From NCBI GenBank assembly GCA_024742285.1, contig JANSYR010000010.1, forward strand, positions 186,001 to 250,000: DNA of 64,000 nucleotides, given 5' to 3'. The stretch is from a bacterium (GTDB lineage Bacteria; Myxococcota_A; UBA9160; UBA4427). How positions within the stretch are numbered: the stretch's first letter is position 1; every line of letters begins with the position of its first letter. A program made the translations under genes and the position numbers. Positions 2,991 to 24,069 of the stretch are shown here, piece after piece. Below the pieces are notes generated by a model that saw nothing but the letters and a program-made list of their open reading frames with translations, was not told the origin of the DNA and did no database searches.

Positions 2991-4412
2991 TCAGGCGCGG
3001 AAGTCCTCCTTGCGGAGCTCGTATTTCTTCATCTTCTGGTGGAGGGATCTCGGATCCATGCCGGCGCGGGTCGCGGTCTCGCCGATCCGACCCCCGGTCG
3101 CCTCGAGCACCCCGCGCAGATAGCGGATCTCCGCCTCCTCGAGGACGGTCCGGCGGACTTCGGCCCACGTCCGCTCGTTCCACGAGGCATCCGGCTGGAT
3201 CGGGCCCGCGACCTGCTGCGGATCGAGGGACGCGTCCCGCGCCGCCATCAGCTGGATGTCGACCGCGAGGTCCTCGACCTGGATCTCCGGCCCGGGACAC
3301 ATGATCACGGCGCGCTCGATCGCGTTGGCGAGCTCGCGGACGTTGCCCGGCCACGGATAGCGGCGGATCGCTTCGAGGGCCGGCTCCGCGATCCGCTCGG
3401 CGGGGCTGCCGATCGCCACCCGGTAGTGGTCGACGTAGCTCTGGGCGATCTCGGCGAGATCCTCGGCGCGGTCCCGGAGTGCGGGCAGCGTGATCGAGAC
3501 GACGTTCAGGCGATAGTAGAGATCCTCTCGGAAGCGCTTCTCCTTGACCTCCTCGAGGAGGTTCTTGTTCGTCGCCGCGATCAGCCGCACGTCCACCGGA
3601 ATCCGCTTCTCCGAACCGACGGGGCGCACCTTCCGGTCTTCGAGGACCTGGAGGAGCTTGACCTGGAGGTGGAGCGGCATCTCTCCGATCTCGTCGAGGA
3701 AGAGCGTGCCCTTGTGCGCCAGCTCGAAGTAGCCGCGCCGCGCCCGGTCGGCGCCCGTGAAGGCGCCGCGCTCGTGGCCGAAGAGTTCCGCTTCGAGGAG
3801 CGACTCGGTCAGCGCGCCACAGTTCACCGCGATGAAGGGCCCCTTCGCGCGCGGGCTCTCGTTGTGGATCGAGCGCGCCAGGAGGCCCTTGCCGACACCG
3901 GTCTCGCCGAGCACGAGCACGTTCGCGTCGACGGCGGCGACGCGCTTGGCCGACACGAGCAGCCGCTTCATCGTCTCGCTGCGCGTCACATAGTCGCTCA
4001 GGCGATAGTCCTCGTCGGGGACCGCGAGCAGGCTCGACCGGCTCTCCTCGAGGCGGCGTTCGGCGACGGCGGCGAGGGACTCGCCGAAGAGGTCGCCGGG
4101 AAGGTCGGCGACGACCACGCCGTAGGCACCCGCCGCCACCAGCTCCGCGCGGAGGGCTGCGTCGTCCTCGTCGATCAGGACGATGATCTCGGGGTGGTCG
4201 GGGAGGTCCCGCAGAGACCGGATCAGCTGCGTCGTCGACTTCGGCGCGAGCTCGTGCTCGAGGATCACGAGATCGAAGGGCTCGGCGGCCAGCTTGCGAT
4301 GGACCTCCTCGAGCGAGCCGGCTCCGCGCACCAGCGCATCGACGTTGTCGAGGGCGTTCTGGATCGGCGTGCGCGGGGCGGACGAGGTTGCGATCAGGGT
4401 TCTGAGCAGCAC
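2991..4412 (-). CDS. Sigma-54-dependent transcriptional activator with pseudo-receiver
   Basis: A 473-residue NtrC-family activator. Residues 1-125 form a receiver-like domain in which the phosphoacceptor position reads DLVILEHE, so E52 stands where Asp is expected. The AAA+ domain has Walker A GETGVGKG (about 169-176), the sigma-54 contact loop GAFTGA (about 216-221) and the Walker B acidic pair in [10 protein letters not shown] Fis-type helix-turn-helix ends the protein (about 435-470). I chose the GTG at 4412, with GAGAGG 8 bases upstream; the longer upstream frame looks non-coding. No histidine kinase is adjacent, which fits a receiver that may not need phosphorylation (inference). The nearest sigma-54 promoters are at 4611, 7900 and 9258. 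Confidence 0.9.
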
Positions 4413-4610
4413 GCGCGGGGCCTCTCGACGTCGGAGAGCGGCGGAGTGTCGCGTGATCGCGAGTGCCCCGCAAACGCGTCGCCCGAGGGGCAGCGGCCGG
4501 CGCGCATTCGCCGGGGAAGCCGGAATCGGAGCGTGCGAAGCCGACGCGGGTCGGGATCGGAGCGACGAGGCCCGATCCGCGCGAGGACGGCGCGACGACG
4601 CGGGTTTCGC

Positions 4611-4627
4611 TTGGCACGCAGGTTGCT
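4611..4627 (+). promoter_or_regulatory. Sigma-54 (-24/-12) promoter for the small peptide gene
   Basis: TTGGCACGCAGGTTGCT matches the TGGCAC-N5-TTGC consensus, with GG and GC exactly 10 bases apart. Transcription should start near 4637, about 55 bases before the ATG at 4692. The activator gene begins about 200 bases upstream on the other strand. A short inverted repeat (TCGCG-TGAT-CGCGA, 4449-4462) lies in the shared spacer and is a weak candidate activator site. The rest of 4413-4610 shows nothing else I can support. Confidence 0.8.
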
Positions 4628-4691
4628 CTCTTCCCCGCAGCCAAGGCGATGCAGCGACGTCGGGTCCGATCGATGCTGCCGGAGTCCCAAC

Positions 4692-4814
4692 ATGGAGAGT
4701 TCGCCTCACGAGGTCGATTCGAGCAGGCCACCCCCCGTGGCGCCGAAGCCCGAAGACGCAACCGCGTCGACGGGGCTGCCGCGACCGACGCGGCCCCCGC
4801 GGCCCAAACGCTGA
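4692..4814 (+). CDS. Small Pro/Arg-rich peptide under sigma-54 control
   Basis: A 40-codon ORF. It starts with ATG at 4692, has GGAG 7 bases upstream, and ends with TGA 17 bases before a strong hairpin. The first half is acidic and polar. The second half is rich in proline and basic residues and ends PRPTRPPRPKR. There is no signal peptide or hydrophobic stretch. I do not recognise it. The evidence for a real gene is the arrangement: promoter, ribosome-binding site, ORF and terminator within about 250 bases, beside the sigma-54 activator gene. It could encode a small regulator or a secreted cationic peptide, or the transcript itself could be a small RNA; the function is unknown. Confidence 0.5.
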   Translation: MESSPHEVDSSRPPPVAPKPEDATASTGLPRPTRPPRPKR

Positions 4815-4831
4815 ACACGGCGGTCTGCTCA

Positions 4832-4862
4832 GGGCCCGCTCGAGGTCTCCTCGGGCGGGCCC
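4832..4862 (+). terminator. Hairpin terminator of the small peptide unit
   Basis: A 14-base stem (GGGCCCGCTCGAGG with CCTCGGGCGGGCCC, one G-T pair) closes a three-base loop and is followed by TCCCTT rather than a true T-run. It lies just after the small ORF. It would also end transcripts approaching from the convergent deacylase gene at 4932. Confidence 0.6.
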
Positions 4863-4931
4863 GTCCCTTCGAGGCGATGGGAGGCGAGTGGAGGCGAGTC
4901 GAGGCGGGCACGCGGCGCGAGGTGGAGACGC

Positions 4932-5954
4932 TCAGATGAGCGCGTCCACCTCGAGGTCCTCTCGGAACGCGTCGAGCTCCTCGACGACGCTCTCGAGCGC
5001 GTCGAAGGTGGCGACGTGGAAGAGGGCGTCTCCCTCGTTCGCGAGAGGCAGGTTCGTGCGGCCGATCAGGATGCCGGCCACCGGGGACTTGATCTCGTAG
5101 GCCGACTCGCCGAGCGGGTCCGTGATCTGCCCGAGCACCTGCTTGCGTTCGATCGTCGCGCCGAGCCGGAGCTTCGTCGCGAGAATCCCCGTTTCGGGCG
5201 CGCGGACCCAGACGCTCTTGTGCGCGATCACGTCGGTCGGCGCCTTCGGCGGGGTGGACGTTCGGGCCGGGAGCATCCCGAGGTGGCGCATCACGGCCGT
5301 GATCCCGCGAACGCCGGCGCGAATCGAGACCTCGTCGAAGCGAAGCGCCTCGCCCGCTTCGTACACGAGGACCGGGATGCCGAGGTCGTTCGCGGAAGCG
5401 CGCAGCGATCCCGGTCGGAACGAGGAGTTGAGGATCACGGGGGCGGCGAAGGCGCGCGCCATGTTCTCGACGACCGGCCCCTTCAGGCGGGCACGGATCT
5501 GCGGCAGGTTGGTGCGATGGATCGCCCCCGTGTGCAGGTCGATGCCGTGGGTGGATCCCTGGACGAAGTTCGAGAGGAACGCGTCCGCGACCCGTCCGGC
5601 GAGAGAGCCCCGCTCGGATCCCGGGAAGCATCGGTTCAGGTCGCGTCGGTCGGGCAGATAGCGCTGGTGCGAGACGAAGCCGTAGACGTTCACGACGGGC
5701 ACGGCGACGAGCGTGCCCCGCAGCTGCTTCAGCATCGGGCGCGCGAGCAGCCGCCGAAGGATCTCGACGCCGTTGATCTCGTCGCCGTGGAGGGCCGCCG
5801 AGACGAACAGGCGCGGACCGGGCTTCCGCCCGTGGAGGACCACGGCGGGGATCTCGACGTCGCCGGTCGTGATGCGCTGGGCGACCTTGACGGAGACCTT
5901 GCGTCGCTCGCCGGGGGCGATCGTCTCGCCCGCGATCGTGATCGGCTCGCTCAT
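4932..5954 (-). CDS. Succinylglutamate desuccinylase/aspartoacylase-family hydrolase (cytosolic)
   Basis: A 340-residue M14-like zinc hydrolase of the AstE/AspA family, which cleaves N-acyl or amide bonds on amino acids. HGDEINGVE supplies His56 and Glu59 as zinc ligands, and IDLHTG supplies the second His. The RDLNRCFPG segment is typical of the family. A C-terminal beta domain (about 245-330) contains TGILATKLRLGATIERKQ. No signal peptide is seen. The start overlaps the rimK stop by 4 bases (ATGA), so the two are translationally coupled. AstE-like proteins are commonly encoded with RimK ligases, so this enzyme may remove what the ligase adds; that pairing is inference. Confidence 0.88.
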   Translation of the reverse strand: MSEPITIAGETIAPGERRKVSVKVAQRITTGDVEIPAVVLHGRKPGPRLFVSAALHGDEINGVEILRRLLARPMLKQLRGTLVAVPVVNVYGFVSHQRYLPDRRDLNRCFPGSERGSLAGRVADAFLSNFVQGSTHGIDLHTGAIHRTNLPQIRARLKGPVVENMARAFAAPVILNSSFRPGSLRASANDLGIPVLVYEAGEALRFDEVSIRAGVRGITAVMRHLGMLPARTSTPPKAPTDVIAHKSVWVRAPETGILATKLRLGATIERKQVLGQITDPLGESAYEIKSPVAGILIGRTNLPLANEGDALFHVATFDALESVVEELDAFREDLEVDALI

Positions 5955-7369
5955 TCGCTCTCGGATCCGATCGGGCGGGCGCTGCTCTCCTCGCGGGTCC
6001 CGTCTTCGGCCCCCGCCGCCTCGGACCCGCCGAGCTCCGGCGGCGGCACGGGCGCCACCCCCGGTGCGGGCGCGACGACGGCGACGGGCTCGTCCCCCAT
6101 GAGCGCCGACGGGGTTTCCTCCTCACTCGCGATCGGAACGGAGGCGGCGACGGCCGGGGCCGACTCGGCGACCGCGTCGGCTCCGCTCGCGGGGAGCGAC
6201 GTCGAGCGCTTCTTCTTCCGGCGCCGCTTCGGGCCGCGGGGCGCGAGGCTCTTGAGCGTCAGCGTCTTGCCGAAGCAGAGGAGCGTGTCGCCGGGCAGGA
6301 TCTCGCGGCTGCCCTTCGGGTTCGGAATCGAGACGGGGCCGCGGTGGATGCTGAGCACGACCACGTCCCGGTCTCGCAGGCCGGTGTCGGTGATGGCGCG
6401 GTTGGCGAGCTCCGACTTCTCGTCGACGGGGACCTCCAGGACGCCGTAGCCGCTCTGCAGGGTCAGGCGCTGCCGGATGTCGATCTCCGGGAACAGGACC
6501 TCTTCCTCGATGAGCTCGATGACCGCGCCCGCCACGTCGACGCCGGTCGCCGCCTCGATTCCCTCGAGCCCCGGCGAGGAGTTGATCTCCATCAGCTTGG
6601 GGCCGTCCTTGCCCTCGAGCATGTCCACGCCGGCGACGCGCAGACCCATGATCTGGGCCGCGTGGAGGGCCGTCCGCTCGAACTCGGGATCGAGGTCGAC
6701 GGGCTCGGCGATCCCGCCGCGGTGGACGTTGCTGCGGAACTCGTCGCCCTGGGCGACCCGGCGCATCGCGGCGACGACGCGGTTGCCGACGACGAACGCG
6801 CGAATGTCGCGGCCGCGGCTCTCCTTCACGAATTCCTGGATCAGGACGTTCTGGTTGGCGGCGCCCTGGAGGACCTCGATGATCGACTTCGCGACCGAGG
6901 CCGTGTCGGCGAGGATCACGCCGATGCCCTGCGTGCCCTCGAGCAGCTTGATGACGACGGGCGGGCCGCCCATGGCATCGATCGTGGGCACGATCTGATC
7001 GAGCTCGTGGACGAAGGCGGTCTTCGGGATGCCGATCTTGTGGCGGGAAAGGATCTGCATGGACCGCAGCTTGTCCCGCGAGACGCTGATGGCCTGCGAG
7101 CTGTTCAGGCAGAAGACGCCCATCTGCTCGAACTGTCGGACGACCGCCGTGCCGTAGAGGGTGATGGACGCGCCGATGCGCGGGATCACGGCGTCGTAGT
7201 GGGAGACCGACTTGCCGCGGAACGTGAGGTCCGGCTCGCCCTCCTCGTTGTCGATCGCGAACTTGAGGGTGTCAAGCACGCGCGGCTGGTGGCCGCGCAG
7301 CTTCGCGGCTTCGTGGAGCCGGCGCGTGCTGTAGAGGTTCCGGCCGCGGGAGAGGATGGCGATCTTCAT
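5951..7369 (-). CDS. rimK: RimK-family alpha-L-glutamate ligase with a TrkA-C-like domain
   Basis: A 472-residue ATP-grasp ligase. The N-terminal 300 residues match RimK, beginning MKIAILSRGRNLYSTRRL, with the ATP-grasp segment VVIKLLEGTQGIGVIL and the metal-binding MEINSSPGLEGIE near the end of the fold. RimK adds glutamates to ribosomal protein S6 or makes poly-glutamate (family knowledge). Residues about 310-385 resemble a TrkA-C domain, and a basic KRRRKKKRS patch plus an Ala/Pro/Glu-rich tail follow. The start at 7369 has AAGGA 6 bases upstream; an earlier in-frame ATG at 7477 lacks support. The target protein is unknown, and the extra domain suggests ligand control. Confidence 0.88.
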   Translation of the reverse strand: MKIAILSRGRNLYSTRRLHEAAKLRGHQPRVLDTLKFAIDNEEGEPDLTFRGKSVSHYDAVIPRIGASITLYGTAVVRQFEQMGVFCLNSSQAISVSRDKLRSMQILSRHKIGIPKTAFVHELDQIVPTIDAMGGPPVVIKLLEGTQGIGVILADTASVAKSIIEVLQGAANQNVLIQEFVKESRGRDIRAFVVGNRVVAAMRRVAQGDEFRSNVHRGGIAEPVDLDPEFERTALHAAQIMGLRVAGVDMLEGKDGPKLMEINSSPGLEGIEAATGVDVAGAVIELIEEEVLFPEIDIRQRLTLQSGYGVLEVPVDEKSELANRAITDTGLRDRDVVVLSIHRGPVSIPNPKGSREILPGDTLLCFGKTLTLKSLAPRGPKRRRKKKRSTSLPASGADAVAESAPAVAASVPIASEEETPSALMGDEPVAVVAPAPGVAPVPPPELGGSEAAGAEDGTREESSARPIGSESE

Positions 7370-7498
7370 GTGGATCCTTCGAGAGAGGGGAGCGCGACCG
7401 AGGAGCAAGTCGCGTGCCAGCGTTCGGCGGGATCGAACCGGGGGCGAGGTCGGCGGAGGTGATCCGGGACGCGCCACCGCGCTCGGGCGGGTGACAAC

Positions 7499-7846
7499 CT
7501 ACACCCGATCGGGCGGCTCGGCTCCGATCGGCTCGGCCCCGCCCGGTTCGCCGGCCCCGTCCCCCCGCGCGCGCCGCGTCAGCCGGCAGGGGACATCCGC
7601 CGCTTCGAGCGCCGCCCGGAGCGGGTCGAGATCGACCCGGGCCCCGCTCCGAACCGGGCCGGGAAGCCGCGCCAGCCAGGCCTCCCGTTCGAAGCGCTTG
7701 ACGCGAAGGACCCGGAAGAGGGCCGATCGCTGGGTCGGTGCGATCGCCTCCGCGCTCGCGGAGATCACGAGCTCCCAGGTCCGCCGGGCCCGCTCCCGCT
7801 GCGCCCGTGCGTCTGCCTCCCTCGAACGTGCGTCGTCCTGCGCCAT
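7499..7846 (-). CDS. Small uncharacterised protein upstream of rimK
   Basis: A 115-residue protein that I do not recognise. The N-terminal 25 residues are highly charged (Arg/Glu/Asp), predicting a helix. The middle, including TWELVISASAEAIAPTQRSA and RVLRVKRFEREAWLARLPG, looks like a compact alpha/beta fold. The C-terminal 25 residues are Gly/Pro/Glu-rich and probably disordered. It lies 129 bases upstream of rimK on the same strand and may share its transcript. The divergent side faces the sigma-54 promoter at 7900. No signal peptide or membrane segment is present. Confidence that it is a gene is moderate. Confidence 0.5.
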   Translation of the reverse strand: MAQDDARSREADARAQRERARRTWELVISASAEAIAPTQRSALFRVLRVKRFEREAWLARLPGPVRSGARVDLDPLRAALEAADVPCRLTRRARGDGAGEPGGAEPIGAEPPDRV

Positions 7847-7899
7847 GGCGATCCGTCCCGGGCCGCGTGCTCCCGATGATCGGTGAGTCCGCCGCATCA

Positions 7900-7915
7900 T
7901 GGCACGGCGATTGCT
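7900..7915 (+). promoter_or_regulatory. Sigma-54 promoter of the universal stress protein gene
   Basis: TGGCACGGCGATTGCT has the invariant GG and GC 10 bases apart and matches the consensus at nearly every position. It lies 51 bases before the start codon at 7967 and is the only promoter-like site in this spacer. Confidence 0.8.
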
Positions 7916-7966
7916 CTCTGGCTTCCCAGACCCGGTCACGCCGAGTCGGTCAGCCCAGGAGGGACG

Positions 7967-8878
7967 ATGGACATGAACGGTCCCGTGCTCGTCGGAACGG
8001 ATTTCTCTTCGTCGTCGAAGCGGGCGACCGACCTCGCGGCGGCGCTGGCCGCCCGCCTCGGCCGTCCGCTCGTGGTCGCCCACGTCTGGAACCCGAATGC
8101 CCTGGCCAACGTGCCCTTCTCGGGCGAGATCGACCTCGCGCCGGTCATGACGGCGGCGCGCGACGGCGCCCGCCAGGCCCTCGACGAGGAAGTCGAGCGG
8201 GTCCGAACGAGCGGGGGCGAAGTCCGCCCGCATCTGATCGAAGGGGCGGCTTCGCGCGCCCTCGCCGAGCTCGGTCGCGCGCTCGACGCCGAGCTCGTCG
8301 TGATGGGACGACGCGGCAGCGCCGGGCTCGCGCACGTCCTGCTCGGCAGCGTGAGCGAGCGCGTCGCTCGCATCGCGGATCGCCCCGTCCTGGTCGTCCC
8401 CGACGGTGCGGAGGTGGCGCCGGTCCCCCGGCGGCTGCTCGTCGGCGTGGACTTCTCCGGGGCCGCGCGCGAAGCGGTCGATGCCGCCCTGCGCTTCACC
8501 GCCGAGCTCGGCTGTGGGCCCCCGGTGCTCGTCCATGCCTACCAGGACGAGCGGGCGGAGTGGCTCGCGAGCTGGAGCGAGACCGGGCGGGTGGGGCTGT
8601 CGCGCCCCGACGGGTACGACCTGGCGCACTGGGTGGAACGCACGCTGCCGGAGGCGAGCCATGTCGAGCTCGTGTCCGTCGCGGGCGCCGTGGAAGAGCA
8701 GCTCGTCGCGACGGCACGAGCGCACGAGGCGGACTGGATCGCCGTCGGGCTTCAGGGGCGCACCGCGCTGGCCACGTTCCTCATGGGGACGACCACCCGA
8801 AGCGTGCTCGAGCTCGCCGACCGGCCCGTGCTCGTCGTGCCCGGCCGCACCGCACCGGACCGCGAAGCCATCGACTGA
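7967..8878 (+). CDS. Tandem universal stress protein (two USP domains)
   Basis: A 303-residue cytosolic protein with two UspA domains (about 4-145 and 150-295). Each domain keeps a nucleotide-binding loop of the G-2x-G-9x-G(S/T) type: GRRGSAGLAHVLLGS in the first and GLQGRTALATFLMGT in the second. ATP binding is therefore likely in both. The ATG at 7967 is preceded by AGGAGG. The gene has its own sigma-54 promoter, which fits induction by stress or nutrient limitation. It is followed by a 500-base spacer and then a PP2C gene that also has a sigma-54 promoter, so both probably answer to the same activator (inference). Confidence 0.9.
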   Translation: MDMNGPVLVGTDFSSSSKRATDLAAALAARLGRPLVVAHVWNPNALANVPFSGEIDLAPVMTAARDGARQALDEEVERVRTSGGEVRPHLIEGAASRALAELGRALDAELVVMGRRGSAGLAHVLLGSVSERVARIADRPVLVVPDGAEVAPVPRRLLVGVDFSGAAREAVDAALRFTAELGCGPPVLVHAYQDERAEWLASWSETGRVGLSRPDGYDLAHWVERTLPEASHVELVSVAGAVEEQLVATARAHEADWIAVGLQGRTALATFLMGTTTRSVLELADRPVLVVPGRTAPDREAID

Positions 8879-8879
8879 G

Positions 8880-9081
8880 ACGCGGACCGCGGACCGCGGG
8901 CCAGCGGGAGCCGCACGAGCAGCGCGTCGTCGGAGACGCCGCTCGTGGGCGCCGGCGCGGCCTTCTGCGTGGCGCGGTCCCGTCGAGCGCGGATCGACTC
9001 GAGTCGCCGCGTCTTCTCGTCGTGGAAGAACGCATCTTCGACGGCGCTTCCGCGTTCATCGGCGTACTTCCCAGGGGCCAG
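8880..9081 (-). pseudogene. Possible remnant of a small conserved protein gene
   Basis: A minus-strand frame shows protein-like sequence: ADERGSAVEDAFFHDEKTRR, then SGVSDDALLVRL. From memory this resembles the N-terminal half of small uncharacterised proteins whose homologues continue into a TerB-like part. Here the resemblance stops and the frame runs on as antisense to the stress-protein gene. No ATG precedes it, but GAGAGGAG lies 5 bases before a CTG at 9081. I read it as a decayed copy, or less likely a short CTG-start gene. The remainder of 8879-9378 holds only the sigma-54 promoter at 9258. Confidence 0.3.
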
Positions 9082-9257
9082 GTCGTCTCCTCTCGTGCCG
9101 GGCAGGGGGCCACCTCCGAATCGGGTGCTGCGAATCCGATCCGCGACAGAGGTCCGCGCCCACCGCGAGGCCGTCCGCGAAGCAGTGCGCGAGAGGGCCG
9201 GAAACGCCCGAACTCGACGACCTGGCGTGGCCCCCGCACGCGGCGCCGCGCGCATCG

Positions 9258-9274
9258 TTGGCACGCCCGTTGCA
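9258..9274 (+). promoter_or_regulatory. Sigma-54 promoter of the PP2C phosphatase gene
   Basis: TTGGCACGCCCGTTGCA is a textbook sigma-54 element (TGGCAC-N5-TTGCA, GG-N10-GC). The predicted start near 9285 leaves a leader of about 95 bases before the ATG at 9379. CCGATCCGCG occurs about 120 bases upstream here and about 40 bases upstream of the 4611 promoter; I cannot tell whether this shared word matters. Confidence 0.85.
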
Positions 9275-9378
9275 CTCCTCGCGGTCAACGATCGGTCACG
9301 TCCCCGCGTGGTGCGTGACCGATCCCAGCGACCGCGACGCCGCGTGAGGCGTTCGCGGTCGCGCAAGGAGGACTCGGA

Positions 9379-10257
9379 ATGTACGGACCCCGTGGTGCCG
9401 GCTCTTCGCGGAGCTCGGACGATCTGCACAACGAAGACGCCTTCCTCGTGGAGGACGAGATCGGTCTCTATGCCGTCTGTGACGGGCGGGGCGACGCGCC
9501 TGGCGGTGAAGTCGCCGCCTACCTCGCGATCGATGCCGTCTCGCGGTACCTCGACGGACTGCTCCGATTCGAAGGGGGGAAGAGCGGCGGACGCCTGGCG
9601 GCGACGCTCCCGGCGGACGTTTCCTGTCGGACCGTCGAGGCCGCCGTGCGCTACGCGCTCGAGACGATCCTCGAGCGCACGAGCGACCGGCCGGATCTCG
9701 AGGGCATGGCCACGACCGTGACCGTCGTACTGGTCCAGCGCGGCCGCGCCTTCGTCGGTCACTTCGGAGACAGCCGGGCCTACCTCGTCCGCGGCGACGA
9801 TCTGGTCCAGCTGACGACGGACCACGAGTGGACGGAAACCGAGAGCGTGCGTTCCGGCGCCTCCCGTAGCGGGATCGACACCTTCAGCATCGAGACCCGC
9901 GTCGGCGACACGTTCATCCTCTGCACCGACGGCGCGGAAGGCGAGGTCGTGATCGGCGACCTCCTCGAAGCGATCCACGGCTACTCGCCGCGGCTGATCG
10001 CCTCGCGACTCGTGGCGGCTGCGCAGCGTCACCGACCCGACGAGGACGCGACGGTCGTCGTCGTGCGGATCCGCGACGACCTCGAATTCGCCCGAATCGG
10101 CTCCACGGGGCCGGTGGGTCTCGACGGCTACGCGCGCGCCCGCGTGCACCGGCCCTACGCGCGAGCGTCGCGCCCGGCCGCGCCCTTCGAGAACCTGATG
10201 GACCGGACTGCGATCTCGAACGCCCCGACCCCCTCGCGGCGAAACGAGACCGCCTAG
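9379..10257 (+). CDS. PP2C-family protein phosphatase
   Basis: A 292-residue Mn2+/Mg2+-dependent Ser/Thr phosphatase. Metal-binding motifs are NEDAFLV (about 18-24), VCDGRGD (about 33-39), GDSRAYLV, the late CTDGAEGEV and DEDATVVVV. The catalytic domain fills residues 1-235; a 55-residue tail rich in Arg, Ala and Pro has no recognised domain. AAGGAGG lies upstream of the ATG. It is driven by the sigma-54 promoter at 9258 and precedes the retropepsin, mgtE, second PP2C and kinase genes on the same strand, so it may lead that transcript. Its likely partners are the kinases at 13014 or 30839 (inference). Confidence 0.9.
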   Translation: MYGPRGAGSSRSSDDLHNEDAFLVEDEIGLYAVCDGRGDAPGGEVAAYLAIDAVSRYLDGLLRFEGGKSGGRLAATLPADVSCRTVEAAVRYALETILERTSDRPDLEGMATTVTVVLVQRGRAFVGHFGDSRAYLVRGDDLVQLTTDHEWTETESVRSGASRSGIDTFSIETRVGDTFILCTDGAEGEVVIGDLLEAIHGYSPRLIASRLVAAAQRHRPDEDATVVVVRIRDDLEFARIGSTGPVGLDGYARARVHRPYARASRPAAPFENLMDRTAISNAPTPSRRNETA

Positions 10258-10333
10258 GTCGCAGCGCAGGCGCGACGCAGGGCGAGCGGAGGACTATTCT
10301 CGGCCTTCGGCCCCCCACACGCTCGGAGTGCGG

Positions 10334-10849
10334 ATGAGATCGAAGACCGTGGTCGGATGGAACGAGAACGTGGACCTCCCCGAATGGGGGATCAAGCGTC
10401 TCGGCGCGAAGGTCGACACGGGCGCGCAGACCAGCGCGCTCCACGTCGAGAACGTGGAGCCGATCGGGCGCGGCCGCATCCGCTTCGACGTGGTCGTCCA
10501 CAGGGTGAAGCGGGATCGCCACTTCCCCGTGACGGCCCGGGTCGTGCGTCGCGCGCGCGTCCGCTCGAGCAACGGTCACTACGACGTTCGGTACTTCGTC
10601 GAGACCACGGTTCGGATCGGGCCCGTCGAGAAGACGATCGAGATCAGCCTCGTCGATCGCGGCAAGATGGCGCATCGCATGCTCCTCGGGCGGTCCGCGC
10701 TCCGCGGCGACTTCGTCGTCGACGTCAGCCGCAGACACGTGCTCGACAAGCCGAAGCGGAAGGCGAAGCAGAAGACGAAGACGAGCAAGAAGCCCTCGTC
10801 GAGCCCCCCCGCCGGCCGACCCGTCGCCCGCGCGGCGCGAGAGCGCTGA
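10334..10849 (+). CDS. RimB-like retropepsin-type aspartic protease (ATP-dependent zinc protease family)
   Basis: A 171-residue protein of PF05618. It carries the retropepsin active-site motif VDTGAQTSAL (Asp28) and the second conserved strand LLGRSALRGDF, as in RimB/RloA2 proteins. Members are usually encoded beside RimK ligases and are thought to process or counteract glutamylation (family knowledge); in Pseudomonas RimB acts with RimK. The last 40 residues are a Lys/Arg/Ser/Pro-rich tail. ATG 10334 is preceded by GGAG; a GTG two codons earlier is an alternative start. It begins 76 bases after the PP2C gene and ends 7 bases before mgtE, so it is probably in the same operon. The substrate is unknown. 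Confidence 0.85.
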   Translation: MRSKTVVGWNENVDLPEWGIKRLGAKVDTGAQTSALHVENVEPIGRGRIRFDVVVHRVKRDRHFPVTARVVRRARVRSSNGHYDVRYFVETTVRIGPVEKTIEISLVDRGKMAHRMLLGRSALRGDFVVDVSRRHVLDKPKRKAKQKTKTSKKPSSSPPAGRPVARAARER

Positions 10850-10856
10850 GCCCGCC

Positions 10857-12200
10857 ATGTCGGAGACACGCTGGGACGAGATCGTCGAGCTGCTCGACGA
10901 AGGAGACGTCGGGGATCTCCGGGAGCGCTTCGCGGAGTGGAGCGAGTCGGACCGGACGCACGCGGCCGCCCACCTCTCCTCCGGCGACCTCGCGCGGCTC
11001 TTCGATGCGCTCGACGTCGAGCAGGCCGCCGACCTGGTCGAGGACCTGCCCGATCGTCAGGCCGCGGACGCGATCGGCGAGGTCGAGCCCGACGCCGCCG
11101 CCGAGATCCTCGAGGCCCTTGCGAGCGACGAGCGCGCGGACGTCCTGGCCGAGGTCGACGAGGAAGAGCTCGACGCCATCCTCGAGGCGTCGACGCCCGA
11201 GACGGCGGACGACATCCGCACGCTGCTCGAGTACGACCCGGAGTCCGCCGGCGGGCTCATGCACACCGAGTTCGTCTCCATCCGGGTGGGCGCGACCGTC
11301 GCCGAGGCGGTGAGCGAGATCCGCTCCGCCGCGGACGTCTACGCGAAGTTCTCGATCCAGTACCTCTATGCGGTCGACGCCGACGGACGCCTCGAGGGGG
11401 TGGTGCCGCTTCGCGCGCTGCTGCTCTCGCCGCCTTCGGCGCGGGTTTCGCAGGTGATGATCGAGAAGCCGCTCGCGCTCTCGATCGACGACGATCTCGA
11501 TCATCTCTACGAGACCTTCGAGGAGACCGCCTTCCTGGGCGCGCCCGTGGTCGATTTCGACGGGGTCCTCGTCGGCGTCGTAGAGCGGTCCGCGGTCGAC
11601 GAGGCGACCCTCGACCACGCCGAAGCGGACCACATGAAGTCGCTCGGCATCTCGAGCGGCGAAGAGCTGCGCTCCATGCCGCCCCTCGAGCGTTCGCGCC
11701 GCCGGCTCGCCTGGCTCTCGATCAACATCGTGCTGAACCTGATGGCGGCCAGCGTGATCGCGGCCTACGAAGAGACGTTGCAGGGGGCGATCGCCCTCGC
11801 GGTCTTCCTGCCGATCATCTCGGACATGAGCGGCTGCTCGGGAAACCAGGCGGTCGCGGTGAGCCTCCGGGAGCTCTCCCTCGGCGTCGTCCGTCCCGGG
11901 GAGATCGGGCGCGTGCTCGTCAAGGAGATCACCGTGGGCCTCGTGAACGGGCTGGCCCTCGGTCTCCTGCTCGGCGCGGTGGCCCTCGCCTGGAGGGGCG
12001 ACGCGACCCTCGGCCTCGTCGTCGGACTCGCCCTGGCGATCAACACCGTGCTCGCCGTCTCCATCGGGGGCAGCGTCCCGCTGGCGATCAAGCGTTTCGG
12101 CTGGGATCCCGCGCTCGCGTCGGGGCCGATCCTGACGACGCTCACCGACGTGTGTGGCTTCTTTCTGACGCTCAGCTTCGCGAGCGCGGTCCTGGTCTAG
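10857..12200 (+). CDS. mgtE: Magnesium transporter MgtE
   Basis: A 447-residue Mg2+ channel. The acidic N-terminal superhelical domain (about 1-125) precedes two CBS domains (about 135-255), a plug helix and five transmembrane helices (about 285-447). The pore-region signature FLPIISDMSGCSGNQAVAVS is intact, as is the PESAGGLM motif leading into the CBS pair. Both cytosolic parts sense Mg2+ and gate the channel (family knowledge). It sits between the retropepsin gene (7 bases away) and the second PP2C gene (10 bases away), so it is almost certainly co-transcribed. ATP-grasp ligases and PP2C enzymes all need Mg2+, a possible link. Confidence 0.95.
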   Translation: MSETRWDEIVELLDEGDVGDLRERFAEWSESDRTHAAAHLSSGDLARLFDALDVEQAADLVEDLPDRQAADAIGEVEPDAAAEILEALASDERADVLAEVDEEELDAILEASTPETADDIRTLLEYDPESAGGLMHTEFVSIRVGATVAEAVSEIRSAADVYAKFSIQYLYAVDADGRLEGVVPLRALLLSPPSARVSQVMIEKPLALSIDDDLDHLYETFEETAFLGAPVVDFDGVLVGVVERSAVDEATLDHAEADHMKSLGISSGEELRSMPPLERSRRRLAWLSINIVLNLMAASVIAAYEETLQGAIALAVFLPIISDMSGCSGNQAVAVSLRELSLGVVRPGEIGRVLVKEITVGLVNGLALGLLLGAVALAWRGDATLGLVVGLALAINTVLAVSIGGSVPLAIKRFGWDPALASGPILTTLTDVCGFFLTLSFASAVLV

Positions 12201-21984: not shown

Positions 21985-24069
21985 TCAGACCGCTTCGACC
22001 TCGACCTGGATCCCGGTGAGCCAGGACATGCCGCCGAGCGGATCGAAGCTGCCGGGACCGACCGGCGAGAGGACGTTCACGTTCACGCCGGGCATCGACT
22101 GCGCGACGGGCATCCCGCTCGTCCGTTGGTTGCCGAAGCCGTGGGTCATGGCCACGACACCTTCGCGGAGCTTCTCGTCCAGGGTGAGCTCGGTTCGGAC
22201 CTCGCCGTGCTCGTTCCGGACGACGACGAACTGGCCGTCGCGGAGCCCGCGCTCGAGCGCGTCCCGGGGATGCATGTAGAGCGGGTTCGTCGCCGCGCCC
22301 TGCATCTCGCGGAGTGCCTTCACGTTCTGGAAGCCCGAGTTGAGCATCGTGTTCGTGCGCCGGGTGATCAGCTTGAGGGTCGCCGCGTCCTCGTCGACGA
22401 GCGAGGCGAAGATCGGCTCGGCCCGGTCGAGGATGGCCTCGAGGAGGGGCGGGCAGCAATCGAAGGACGCGTCTCCGCGCAGCTCCCGGAGAAAGGTGCC
22501 GGGCTCGCGTCGCGGAATCCGGACGACGTGGCCCTCGGCTTCGCGGAGCGCGGCGATCGAGTGGCCGGATTCCGCGAGTCGCCCGTCCCAGACCGCCGAG
22601 AGCATGTCGTTTCCGGGGAGGTCGAGGAGCGACGGGAGGCCGAGCCCCTGCAGGAGGCGCGAGAAGATCCAGGCGTCGGTCCGGCGCTCCGCCTGCGGCG
22701 GGACGACCGCGTCGGTCCACTGCAGATAGGGCTCGCGCTGCACGCCCTGAACGAAGAAGTTCAGATCCTCGCGCTCGAACCAGTCCGCTGCGGGGAGCAC
22801 CCAGTCCGCCAGCTCGCCGGTCGCGTTCCGGTAGAAGTCGAGGGTCACGAGCAGGTCGAGGGACTCGAGTGCGGCCGACAGATCCTCGCCACCACCGATC
22901 GAGAGCGCCGGGTTGCCCGCGATCGAGATGAAGGCCCGGATCGGATTCCCGGGATCGCGAATCATGTCAGCGAGGAGAGCACCCGGCGGCGTGCCGCGCG
23001 CCGGTACGTAGTCCCCGAACGGCGTCGAGCGAGGCGCGGAGACTTCCGGCGGCATGACCATCGGCGCGAGCCCACGTCCCGCGAAGATGTTCCCGCCCTC
23101 GCGGTCGAGGTTGCCGGTCACGAGGGCGAGCATCTGCGCCAGGTAGTAGGCGAGGGCGCCCTGGCGGCCCATGTTCACGCCGGTCGAAACGTGGATGCCA
23201 GCGCGGGGGGCGGTCGCGAAGTCGCGCGCCATCGCCCGGAGCCGCTCGGCGTCGACCCCGACGATCGCGGTGACGCGCTCGGCGGGATAGCGGCGGACGA
23301 ACGCGCGCAGGGTGTCGACCCCGGACACGTGTTCGAGGGCGTTCTCGTCGAAACCCAGATCGGCAGCGCCCTCGATCTCGTTGAGCATCGCCGCCAGCAG
23401 GTAGGCGTCGGTGTCGGGGCGGATCTGGATCGTCTCGCCCACGTCGGCGAGATCCTCGAGGGCGAGCGGGTTCACGAACACGACCCGAGCGCCGCGGTCG
23501 CGGACTTCGCGCAGGGAGCCGACGGGGTCGGCCGTCTGCAGGAAGGAGAGCTTGCTGACGCGCGGGTTCGTCCCGATCAGCAGCAGATGGTCCGCGTGAT
23601 CGAGGTCGGCGATCGGGTGGATCTCCGCCGATCCGTAGAGGACCTCGCTCACGGCGAACTTGTTCGAGCAGTCCTGGGTGCCGGCATTGAAGAGATGCGG
23701 CGTGCCGATCGCGGCGGCGAACATGCCCGCCGACAGGGAGCCCAGGGCGTTGAACGCGCTCGGGTTGCCGATGTAGAGGGCGACGGACTCGGGGCCGTGG
23801 GTGTCGACGATGGCGCGGAGTCGCGCGGCGATGTCGTCGATCGCCTCGTCCCAGCTGGCGCGTTCGAAGCCGGCGCCCGTCTTCCGCTGGGGATGGTTCG
23901 CGCGGTCCGGGTCATGGTGGATCTCGCGGGCGAGCAGGCCCTTGTGGCAGGCGAAGCCCTTCGAGATCGGGTGGTCGCGGTCGGGTCGGAGGGAGGCGAG
24001 GCGTCCCGTTTCGTCGACCGTCGCCTCGAGGCCGCAGTTCACTTCACAGAGCCGGCAGAATGTCTTCAT
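21985..24069 (-). CDS. Molybdopterin oxidoreductase, DMSO-reductase superfamily
   Basis: A 694-residue cytosolic enzyme. The N-terminal Cys set C5, C8, C12 and C41 binds a [4Fe-4S] cluster. The bis-MGD fold follows, with LLIGTNPRVSKLS, HVSTGVNMGRQG, FISIAGNPALSIGGG and a C-terminal ten-stranded domain (about 575-694). Cys134 in GTQDCSNK is a candidate molybdenum ligand. No Tat signal is present, and no separate electron-transfer subunit is adjacent. It is divergent from the SnoaL-like gene at 24141 with a 71-base spacer. Relatives are labelled formate-dehydrogenase-like, but the substrate is probably an organic compound handled by this island. Confidence 0.85.
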   Translation of the reverse strand: MKTFCRLCEVNCGLEATVDETGRLASLRPDRDHPISKGFACHKGLLAREIHHDPDRANHPQRKTGAGFERASWDEAIDDIAARLRAIVDTHGPESVALYIGNPSAFNALGSLSAGMFAAAIGTPHLFNAGTQDCSNKFAVSEVLYGSAEIHPIADLDHADHLLLIGTNPRVSKLSFLQTADPVGSLREVRDRGARVVFVNPLALEDLADVGETIQIRPDTDAYLLAAMLNEIEGAADLGFDENALEHVSGVDTLRAFVRRYPAERVTAIVGVDAERLRAMARDFATAPRAGIHVSTGVNMGRQGALAYYLAQMLALVTGNLDREGGNIFAGRGLAPMVMPPEVSAPRSTPFGDYVPARGTPPGALLADMIRDPGNPIRAFISIAGNPALSIGGGEDLSAALESLDLLVTLDFYRNATGELADWVLPAADWFEREDLNFFVQGVQREPYLQWTDAVVPPQAERRTDAWIFSRLLQGLGLPSLLDLPGNDMLSAVWDGRLAESGHSIAALREAEGHVVRIPRREPGTFLRELRGDASFDCCPPLLEAILDRAEPIFASLVDEDAATLKLITRRTNTMLNSGFQNVKALREMQGAATNPLYMHPRDALERGLRDGQFVVVRNEHGEVRTELTLDEKLREGVVAMTHGFGNQRTSGMPVAQSMPGVNVNVLSPVGPGSFDPLGGMSWLTGIQVEVEAV

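Follow-up and report, generated by a model that had tools for sequence, protein, structure and literature searches.

In systems of the PspF/pspA type, the gene of an activator and a sigma-54 promoter are arranged head to head, with operators situated between the two, and the target can feed back on its activator, as PspA does on PspF. Short sigma-54 transcripts adjoining their activator are likewise found in the Qrr1/LuxO and CrcZ/CbrB systems. The locus described here has the same outline. However, its target is a proline-rich peptide of 39–67 amino acids, which is unrelated to PspA and for which feedback is a proposal, and in contrast to Qrr1 and CrcZ it is the reading frame that is conserved and not the RNA.

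Further similarities concern the peptide itself and the genes found in its vicinity. Apidaecin, a Type II PrAMP, ends in PRPPHPRL, in which R17 and L18 contact the release factor and the tRNA and belong to the positions that tolerate replacement least (PMC11347161, PMC11549390). Apidaecin and the peptide are both Pro/Arg-rich and combine a free, conserved P-x-P-basic C-terminus with a variable N-terminal half. However, apidaecin originates from an insect polyprotein, whereas the peptide is bacterial, is encoded beside a sigma-54 activator and ends in Arg instead of Leu, with Lys at the penultimate position in six of nine members (tails PRPKR, PPKR, PLPRR and PRPRR). Accordingly, the PRPPHPRL terminus of a Type II PrAMP, with both R17 and L18, is absent from all nine members (PMC11347161). 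In the RimABK system of Pseudomonas, the S6-glutamate ligase RimK acts on ribosomal protein S6, and RimK and the retropepsin RimB are known to modify S6 elsewhere (PMC11957791). RimK and a RimB-like protease are likewise co-regulated at the present locus, with the peptide, an AstE-like hydrolase, a TrkA_C domain on RimK and sigma-54 control as additions; no RimA was recognised next to RimK or RimB in the window. Finally, the proximity of an ATP-grasp ligase to a small peptide with a conserved tail, seen here in one lineage, is reminiscent of the GAK system and of graspetides. In contrast to these, both RimK of the window and the ATP-grasp protein of that lineage (genome G070) score below the GAK cut-off, and the tail lacks an Asp/Glu acceptor.

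Within the window, by which we mean the whole analysed stretch of 64,000 nucleotides, the unit at 4611–4862 occupies part of the 519 bp that separate two minus-strand genes, the divergent activator gene and a convergent AstE-like gene. The sequence-only reading had described a sigma-54 promoter, a GGAG ribosome-binding site, a 40-residue reading frame and a hairpin with a 14-base stem, and all four elements were found at these positions and in this order. The promoter TGGCACG-CAGG-TTGCT (4612–4627, plus strand; TGGCACGCAGGTTGCT) matches the consensus perfectly, displays the GG of the −24 and the GC of the −12 element at the correct spacing (TGGCACG-N4-TTGCT) and is unchanged in G003, a genome of the same genus. 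Judged from the −12 element and the promoter geometry, transcription should start at about position 4638, which gives a predicted 5′ leader of 4638–4691 and an RNA of about 225–230 nt, in agreement with the transcript of about 220 bases that had been expected. The GGAG motif (4681–4684, plus strand) lies 7 nt before the ATG at 4692. The open reading frame (4692–4814, plus strand; MESSPHEVDSSRPPPVAPKPEDATASTGLPRPTRPPRPKR) encodes a proline-rich, basic peptide of 40 amino acids, and the codons of its conserved C-terminal tail P-R-P-K-R, including the stop codon, occupy 4797–4814. Downstream, the arms 4832–4845 and 4849–4862 form a 14-bp hairpin with one U·G pair, which is stable as plus-strand RNA (−31.0 kcal/mol) and probably terminates the peptide transcript, while a clear U-run was not found 3′ of it. 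A plus-strand reading frame of 591 amino acids (3039–4814), which ends in the frame of the peptide, runs antisense to the activator gene and was discarded as a candidate for the gene; automatic gene callers may report this shadow frame and not the 40-residue gene.

Richness in Pro and Arg alone is expected from GC-rich DNA, and the case for a real reading frame rests on comparison. G003 contains a matching unit of promoter, reading frame and hairpin. The two reading frames differ by 10 substitutions, distributed 2/1/7 over the three codon positions. The comparison of synonymous with non-synonymous change that had been proposed as a check gave 3 amino-acid changes compared to 7.06 expected under random placement (P=0.002), indicating purifying selection. 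Moreover, the reading frame is 92% identical to that of G003, compared to 72% for the intergenic region before the promoter and 71% for the leader. Conservation in G003 also extends to the 15 nt that separate stop codon and hairpin. Since the substitutions preserve G·U pairs of the plus-strand RNA, the hairpin of G003 reaches −28.2 kcal/mol on the plus strand but −15.9 kcal/mol on the minus strand, and this strand-specific stability indicates that the hairpin is part of the peptide transcript. On these grounds the unit almost certainly represents a translated, sigma-54-controlled gene.

In the 91 genomes of the class, ten orthologs of the activator were identified, including the copy in the window, and a peptide reading frame is located near nine of them (the window genome G000 and genomes G003, G039, G033, G071, G070, G085, G055 and G075). 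In the tenth genome, G012, no peptide reading frame was recognised within 20 kb of the activator gene. The family members are 39–67 amino acids long, each preceded by an RBS-like sequence, are all net positive and contain no Trp, Phe, Tyr or Cys. Their C-termini, TRPPRPKR, PRPPRPKR, SGPPRPKR, RGVPRPKR (in two members), SSAPPKR, ESPPLPRR, DPLPRPRR and ESPPRPRR, are each directly followed by the stop codon. All nine share Pro at position −3, Lys/Arg at −2 and Arg at −1, and eight of them also have Pro at −5. The tail is constant although its codons differ among the members and all three stop codons are used. The N-terminal halves, by contrast, can hardly be aligned, and with the exception of G003 identity to the window copy is 24–37%, so that homology among the subgroups is judged from tail, position and composition. 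While the sequence-only reading knew of no homologue, eight have now been found; its statement stands insofar as no model in Pfam, NCBIfam or PHROGs matched any of the nine members, and the window peptide had no match among PDB sequences. By these sequence comparisons, the gene belongs to a small, previously unnamed protein family. A secreted peptide, which had been considered as well, is not supported, as inspection of all nine sequences revealed neither a hydrophobic stretch nor a signal-like N-terminus.

Among 504 RBS-preceded reading frames of 25–90 amino acids, taken from the window and from 15 fetched regions, five of which had been selected for AstE and not for the activator, an end in P[KR][KR] occurs in nine, which are exactly the nine family members in nine genomes; as the motif was refined while members were being found, this number describes specificity and is not a blind test. 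Relaxed searches for promoter and PKR in the 91 class genomes yielded RBS-preceded reading frames of family length solely beside the activator, and no further convincing reading frame away from the activator was found by pattern searches in 91 class and 379 phylum genomes, which demanded PKR and a consensus-like promoter and would be escaped by PRR forms. A search for PRPKR/PKR tails alone misses G055, G075 and G085 (PLPRR/PRPRR) as well as the operon copy of G070. With the whole peptide as query, tblastn against 80 genomes of the order returned G003 as the sole convincing match. The pattern PRPKR followed by a stop is unreliable on its own, with about one chance match per genome, and in the fetched loci such matches have no strong upstream sigma-54 site except for the activator-linked copies. 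Phylum-wide, genuine copies retrieved by the strict pattern are confined to this order; four other matches had no fitting reading frame and their count equals the background of the reversed pattern.

The divergent gene (2991–4412, minus strand) encodes a protein with a receiver-like domain (weak PF00072), an AAA+ domain with the GAFTGA loop (PF00158, PF25601) and a Fis-type HTH (PF02954), and the presence of AAA+ domain, GAFTGA loop and HTH identifies it as a sigma-54 activator. By its position, it is taken to be the cognate activator of the peptide promoter. Its relatives are 49–92% identical to the window copy, and the ten-member ortholog clade, the part of the activator tree that was used, is supported by 100/100. 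Read by eye, none of the ten orthologs shows the acidic pair that is usual in the N-terminal part of a receiver domain, and Glu occupies the phospho-acceptor position in G000, G003 and G039. Due to these atypical residues, control of the activator by an ordinary phosphorelay appears unlikely.

Within about 90 bp upstream of the peptide promoter, two copies of an inverted repeat are located at positions identical to those in G003: a distal, imperfect palindrome TCGG-N11-CCGA (4525–4545, plus strand; ATCGGAGCGTGCGAAGCCGAC) and a proximal copy ATCGG-N11-CCGAT (4556–4576, plus strand). Perfect copies are also present at RimK and at the PP2C promoter, the former between the promoters of RimK and the universal stress protein gene (7508–7528) and the latter at 9120–9140, with a copy at the same position in G003. 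Close copies are found in G039, G071, G012 and at the Usp gene of G055, and G033 has one matching at 9/10 positions. The repeat upstream of the regulon promoters can be written as WTCGG-N11-CCGAW. Of 17 regions upstream of regulon genes, which are partly non-independent (G000 and G003 are close), 9 have TCGG and CCGA spaced by 11 nucleotides, and these nine span five lineages; within the range of 0 to 25 nucleotides, each alternative spacing is found in two regions at most. Perfect copies of ATCGG-N11-CCGAT number four in the window compared to 0.33 expected. The repeat is shared across the regulon, as is characteristic of sigma-54 transcription units, and is probably the operator of the activator. 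The fourth perfect copy in the window, at 23612–23632, lies outside the cluster and might mark an additional activator target. The divergent promoter-like element of G055, G075 and G085 belongs to the TGGCA type, with a −12 motif TTGAA replacing TTGCA (GA for GC). This element may be weaker or different, and we are unsure whether sigma-54 is used there.

The peptide promoter is one of four perfect sites TGGCACG-N4-TTGCW in the window, all of which fall between 4.6 and 9.3 kb, whereas 0.01 are expected per 64 kb from shuffling. These four promoters span 4.7 kb, are all kept in G003 and appear to serve a compact stress regulon (4612–12200) consisting of the peptide, RimK-AstE, Usp and PP2C-RimB-MgtE. 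The convergent neighbour of the peptide encodes an AstE/aspartoacylase-like zinc hydrolase (4932–5954, minus strand; PF24827). It is preceded by the gene of a RimK-type ATP-grasp ligase (5951–7369, minus strand), whose promoter (7404–7419, minus strand) is a perfect site 50 bp 5′ of the ATG. The promoter of the universal stress protein gene (7967–8878) is located at 7900–7915 on the plus strand, and that at 9259–9274 (plus strand) precedes the genes of PP2C (9379–10257), a RimB-like retropepsin (10328–10849) and MgtE (10857–12200). RimK exceeds the S6-glutamate ligase cut-off (PRK10446, 338 bits compared to 331) yet has an additional TrkA_C (RCK_C) domain (PF02080) fused to its C-terminus. RCK_C domains of some other proteins bind c-di-AMP, and the fusion suggests that a small ligand, for instance c-di-AMP, controls RimK.

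In other genomes, the operon partners of the peptide vary by lineage, and the activator is the sole companion common to all lineages. In G070, a sigma-54 operon (L227, 4467–6668, plus strand) consists of a GshB-like ATP-grasp gene (PRK12458), a peptide gene with the PRPKR tail and an N-formylglutamate amidohydrolase gene. The peptide gene of G055 is preceded by the gene of an 89-residue protein with a GTGA overlap, whereas in G033 a gene for an MscS-like channel follows 3′ on the same strand. In G075, a membrane c-di-AMP synthase gene with DAC and CdaA_N domains is found upstream of the peptide; this CdaA-like diadenylate cyclase gene (L225, 4554–5975, minus strand) lies between activator and peptide, in divergent orientation to the former. 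Thus, the description of the unit as self-contained is valid for the window and for four relatives, whereas the peptide gene of four others forms an operon, or presumably does so, together with a different gene. Neither the monocistronic layout nor the strong hairpin 3′ of the reading frame, present in three of nine genomes, is constant. Furthermore, the divalent-cation proteins CNNM and MgtE recur near the activator. Because MgtE, CNNM, the MscS-like channel and the c-di-AMP synthase are found near the activator and RimK carries TrkA_C, the peptide is likely to be a member of an ion/osmotic stress regulon. A strong sigma-54 site 5′ of RimK is present in G000 and G003 only, and RimK is encoded on a different contig from the peptide in G033, G071 and G085. 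No RimK match at E 1e-60 was obtained in G039 and G070, both draft genomes that contain the peptide. RimK therefore does not consistently accompany the peptide. In G055, a perfect sigma-54 site (L223, 6876, minus strand) is followed by the gene of a 131-residue protein and a GroES-like reading frame, possibly a sigma-54-controlled chaperonin operon.

Our preferred reading, held with moderate confidence, is that the gene encodes a small, disordered docking protein which would be an output, possibly a feedback output, of an activator responding to ion/osmotic stress. Ion/osmotic or envelope-type stress would trigger the activator, which would bind ATCGG-N11-CCGAT and thereby turn on the peptide, RimK-AstE, Usp and PP2C-RimB-MgtE together. 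The peptide is probably disordered. Since it is cationic, appears disordered and has only its last five residues fixed, docking of the free C-terminus in a partner is suggested: the tail P-R-P-[KR]-R-COOH would anchor the peptide, its free end occupying a pocket of a single partner. As this partner we favour the signalling complex of the activator itself, because the activator is the sole companion in all lineages, and the earlier suggestion of a peptide regulator is plausible for the same reason. This assignment is nevertheless tentative, and the partner could well be something other than the activator complex, the ribosome or an ATP-grasp ligase. Feedback, comparable to that of PspA on PspF, is drawn from the constant neighbourhood; regulator-target pairs without feedback look alike, and we regard it as doubtful.

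Several other readings have to be weighed against a docking protein. Like Qrr1 near luxO, the unit could encode a small regulatory RNA beside its sigma-54 activator, with an accidental reading frame, and its layout is that of known sigma-54 sRNAs; the transcript of about 230 nt with a terminal hairpin and the conserved 15 nt between stop codon and hairpin would fit such an RNA. However, the substitutions track the reading frame, the tail is constant through codon changes, leader and hairpin vary across the family, several homologues lack a strong hairpin, and Rfam gave no match. A broken reading frame beside a persisting promoter and hairpin had been named as the sign of an sRNA, and the reverse is observed, with the frame kept in nine genomes and a strong hairpin in three. 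An sRNA is therefore very unlikely. The same low probability is assigned to a leader peptide, in which pausing on the proline-rich frame would govern a downstream gene in the manner of MgtL or TnaC. The hairpin after a Pro-rich frame, the presence of Mg2+ transporter genes nearby and the downstream MscS-like gene on the same strand in G033 would fit such a role, but the gene that comes next in the window and in G039 is convergent and leaves no co-directional target to attenuate, and in G075 the peptide comes after its operon partner and not before it.

Proline-rich peptides acting on ribosomes or SH3-like partners had also been proposed as a parallel. An endogenous peptide of this kind would insert its C-terminus P-x-P-[KR]-R into the exit tunnel, hold release factors and slow translation under stress. 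The design of a conserved C-terminal segment and a variable N-terminal half is that of Type II PrAMPs, the P-x-P-basic motif is common to apidaecin P14–R17, Arg is penultimate in three members, and RimK and RimB, S6 modifiers elsewhere (PMC11957791), belong to the same regulon. While the C-terminus thus resembles the P-x-P-R-L of apidaecin, R17 and L18, which are reported as critical, are not both kept (PMC11347161): Leu is replaced by Arg in nine of nine members and the penultimate Arg by Lys in six, and conservation of P11/R12 is likewise lacking, although all of these positions are reported to tolerate replacement least (PMC11347161). The ribosome or a termination factor is consequently an unlikely partner. 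Less likely again is a stress-induced, apidaecin-like self peptide that would slow termination in parallel to ribosome modification by RimK/RimB under ion/osmotic stress. An ATP-grasp ligase, either RimK or GshB-like, is as improbable a partner as the ribosome; it would use the peptide as substrate and extend its C-terminus with amino acids, to be trimmed by a hydrolase of the AstE/FGase type. The G070 operon combines all three components, and in the window RimK-AstE belongs to the regulon of the peptide, with AstE as convergent neighbour. However, co-occurrence with RimK, which a RimK substrate should display, is not observed in the drafts G039 and G070, RimK is found on another contig in three genomes, its strong sigma-54 site is restricted to two, and the S6 tail, the known RimK target, is acidic whereas the tail of the peptide is basic.

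Genes as short as that of the docking protein proposed here escape annotation, and sequence alone was sufficient to delineate a class-wide family with its tail, promoter, probable operator and neighbouring activator. The sigma-54 stress regulon of this uncultured lineage would link RimK/RimB-type ribosome modification with Mg2+ and mechanosensitive transport proteins, a theme joined by c-di-AMP synthesis in one genome. Should the activator be its target, the peptide would add a novel type of feedback peptide to this class of regulators. A tail that acted on the ribosome would make it the endogenous equivalent of the apidaecins of insects. Ribosomal protein S6 of these genomes (L252 and other S6 loci) possesses long, Ala/Glu-rich, acidic C-terminal extensions. 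Due to these long acidic tails, RimK may well act on S6 here as it does in Pseudomonas.
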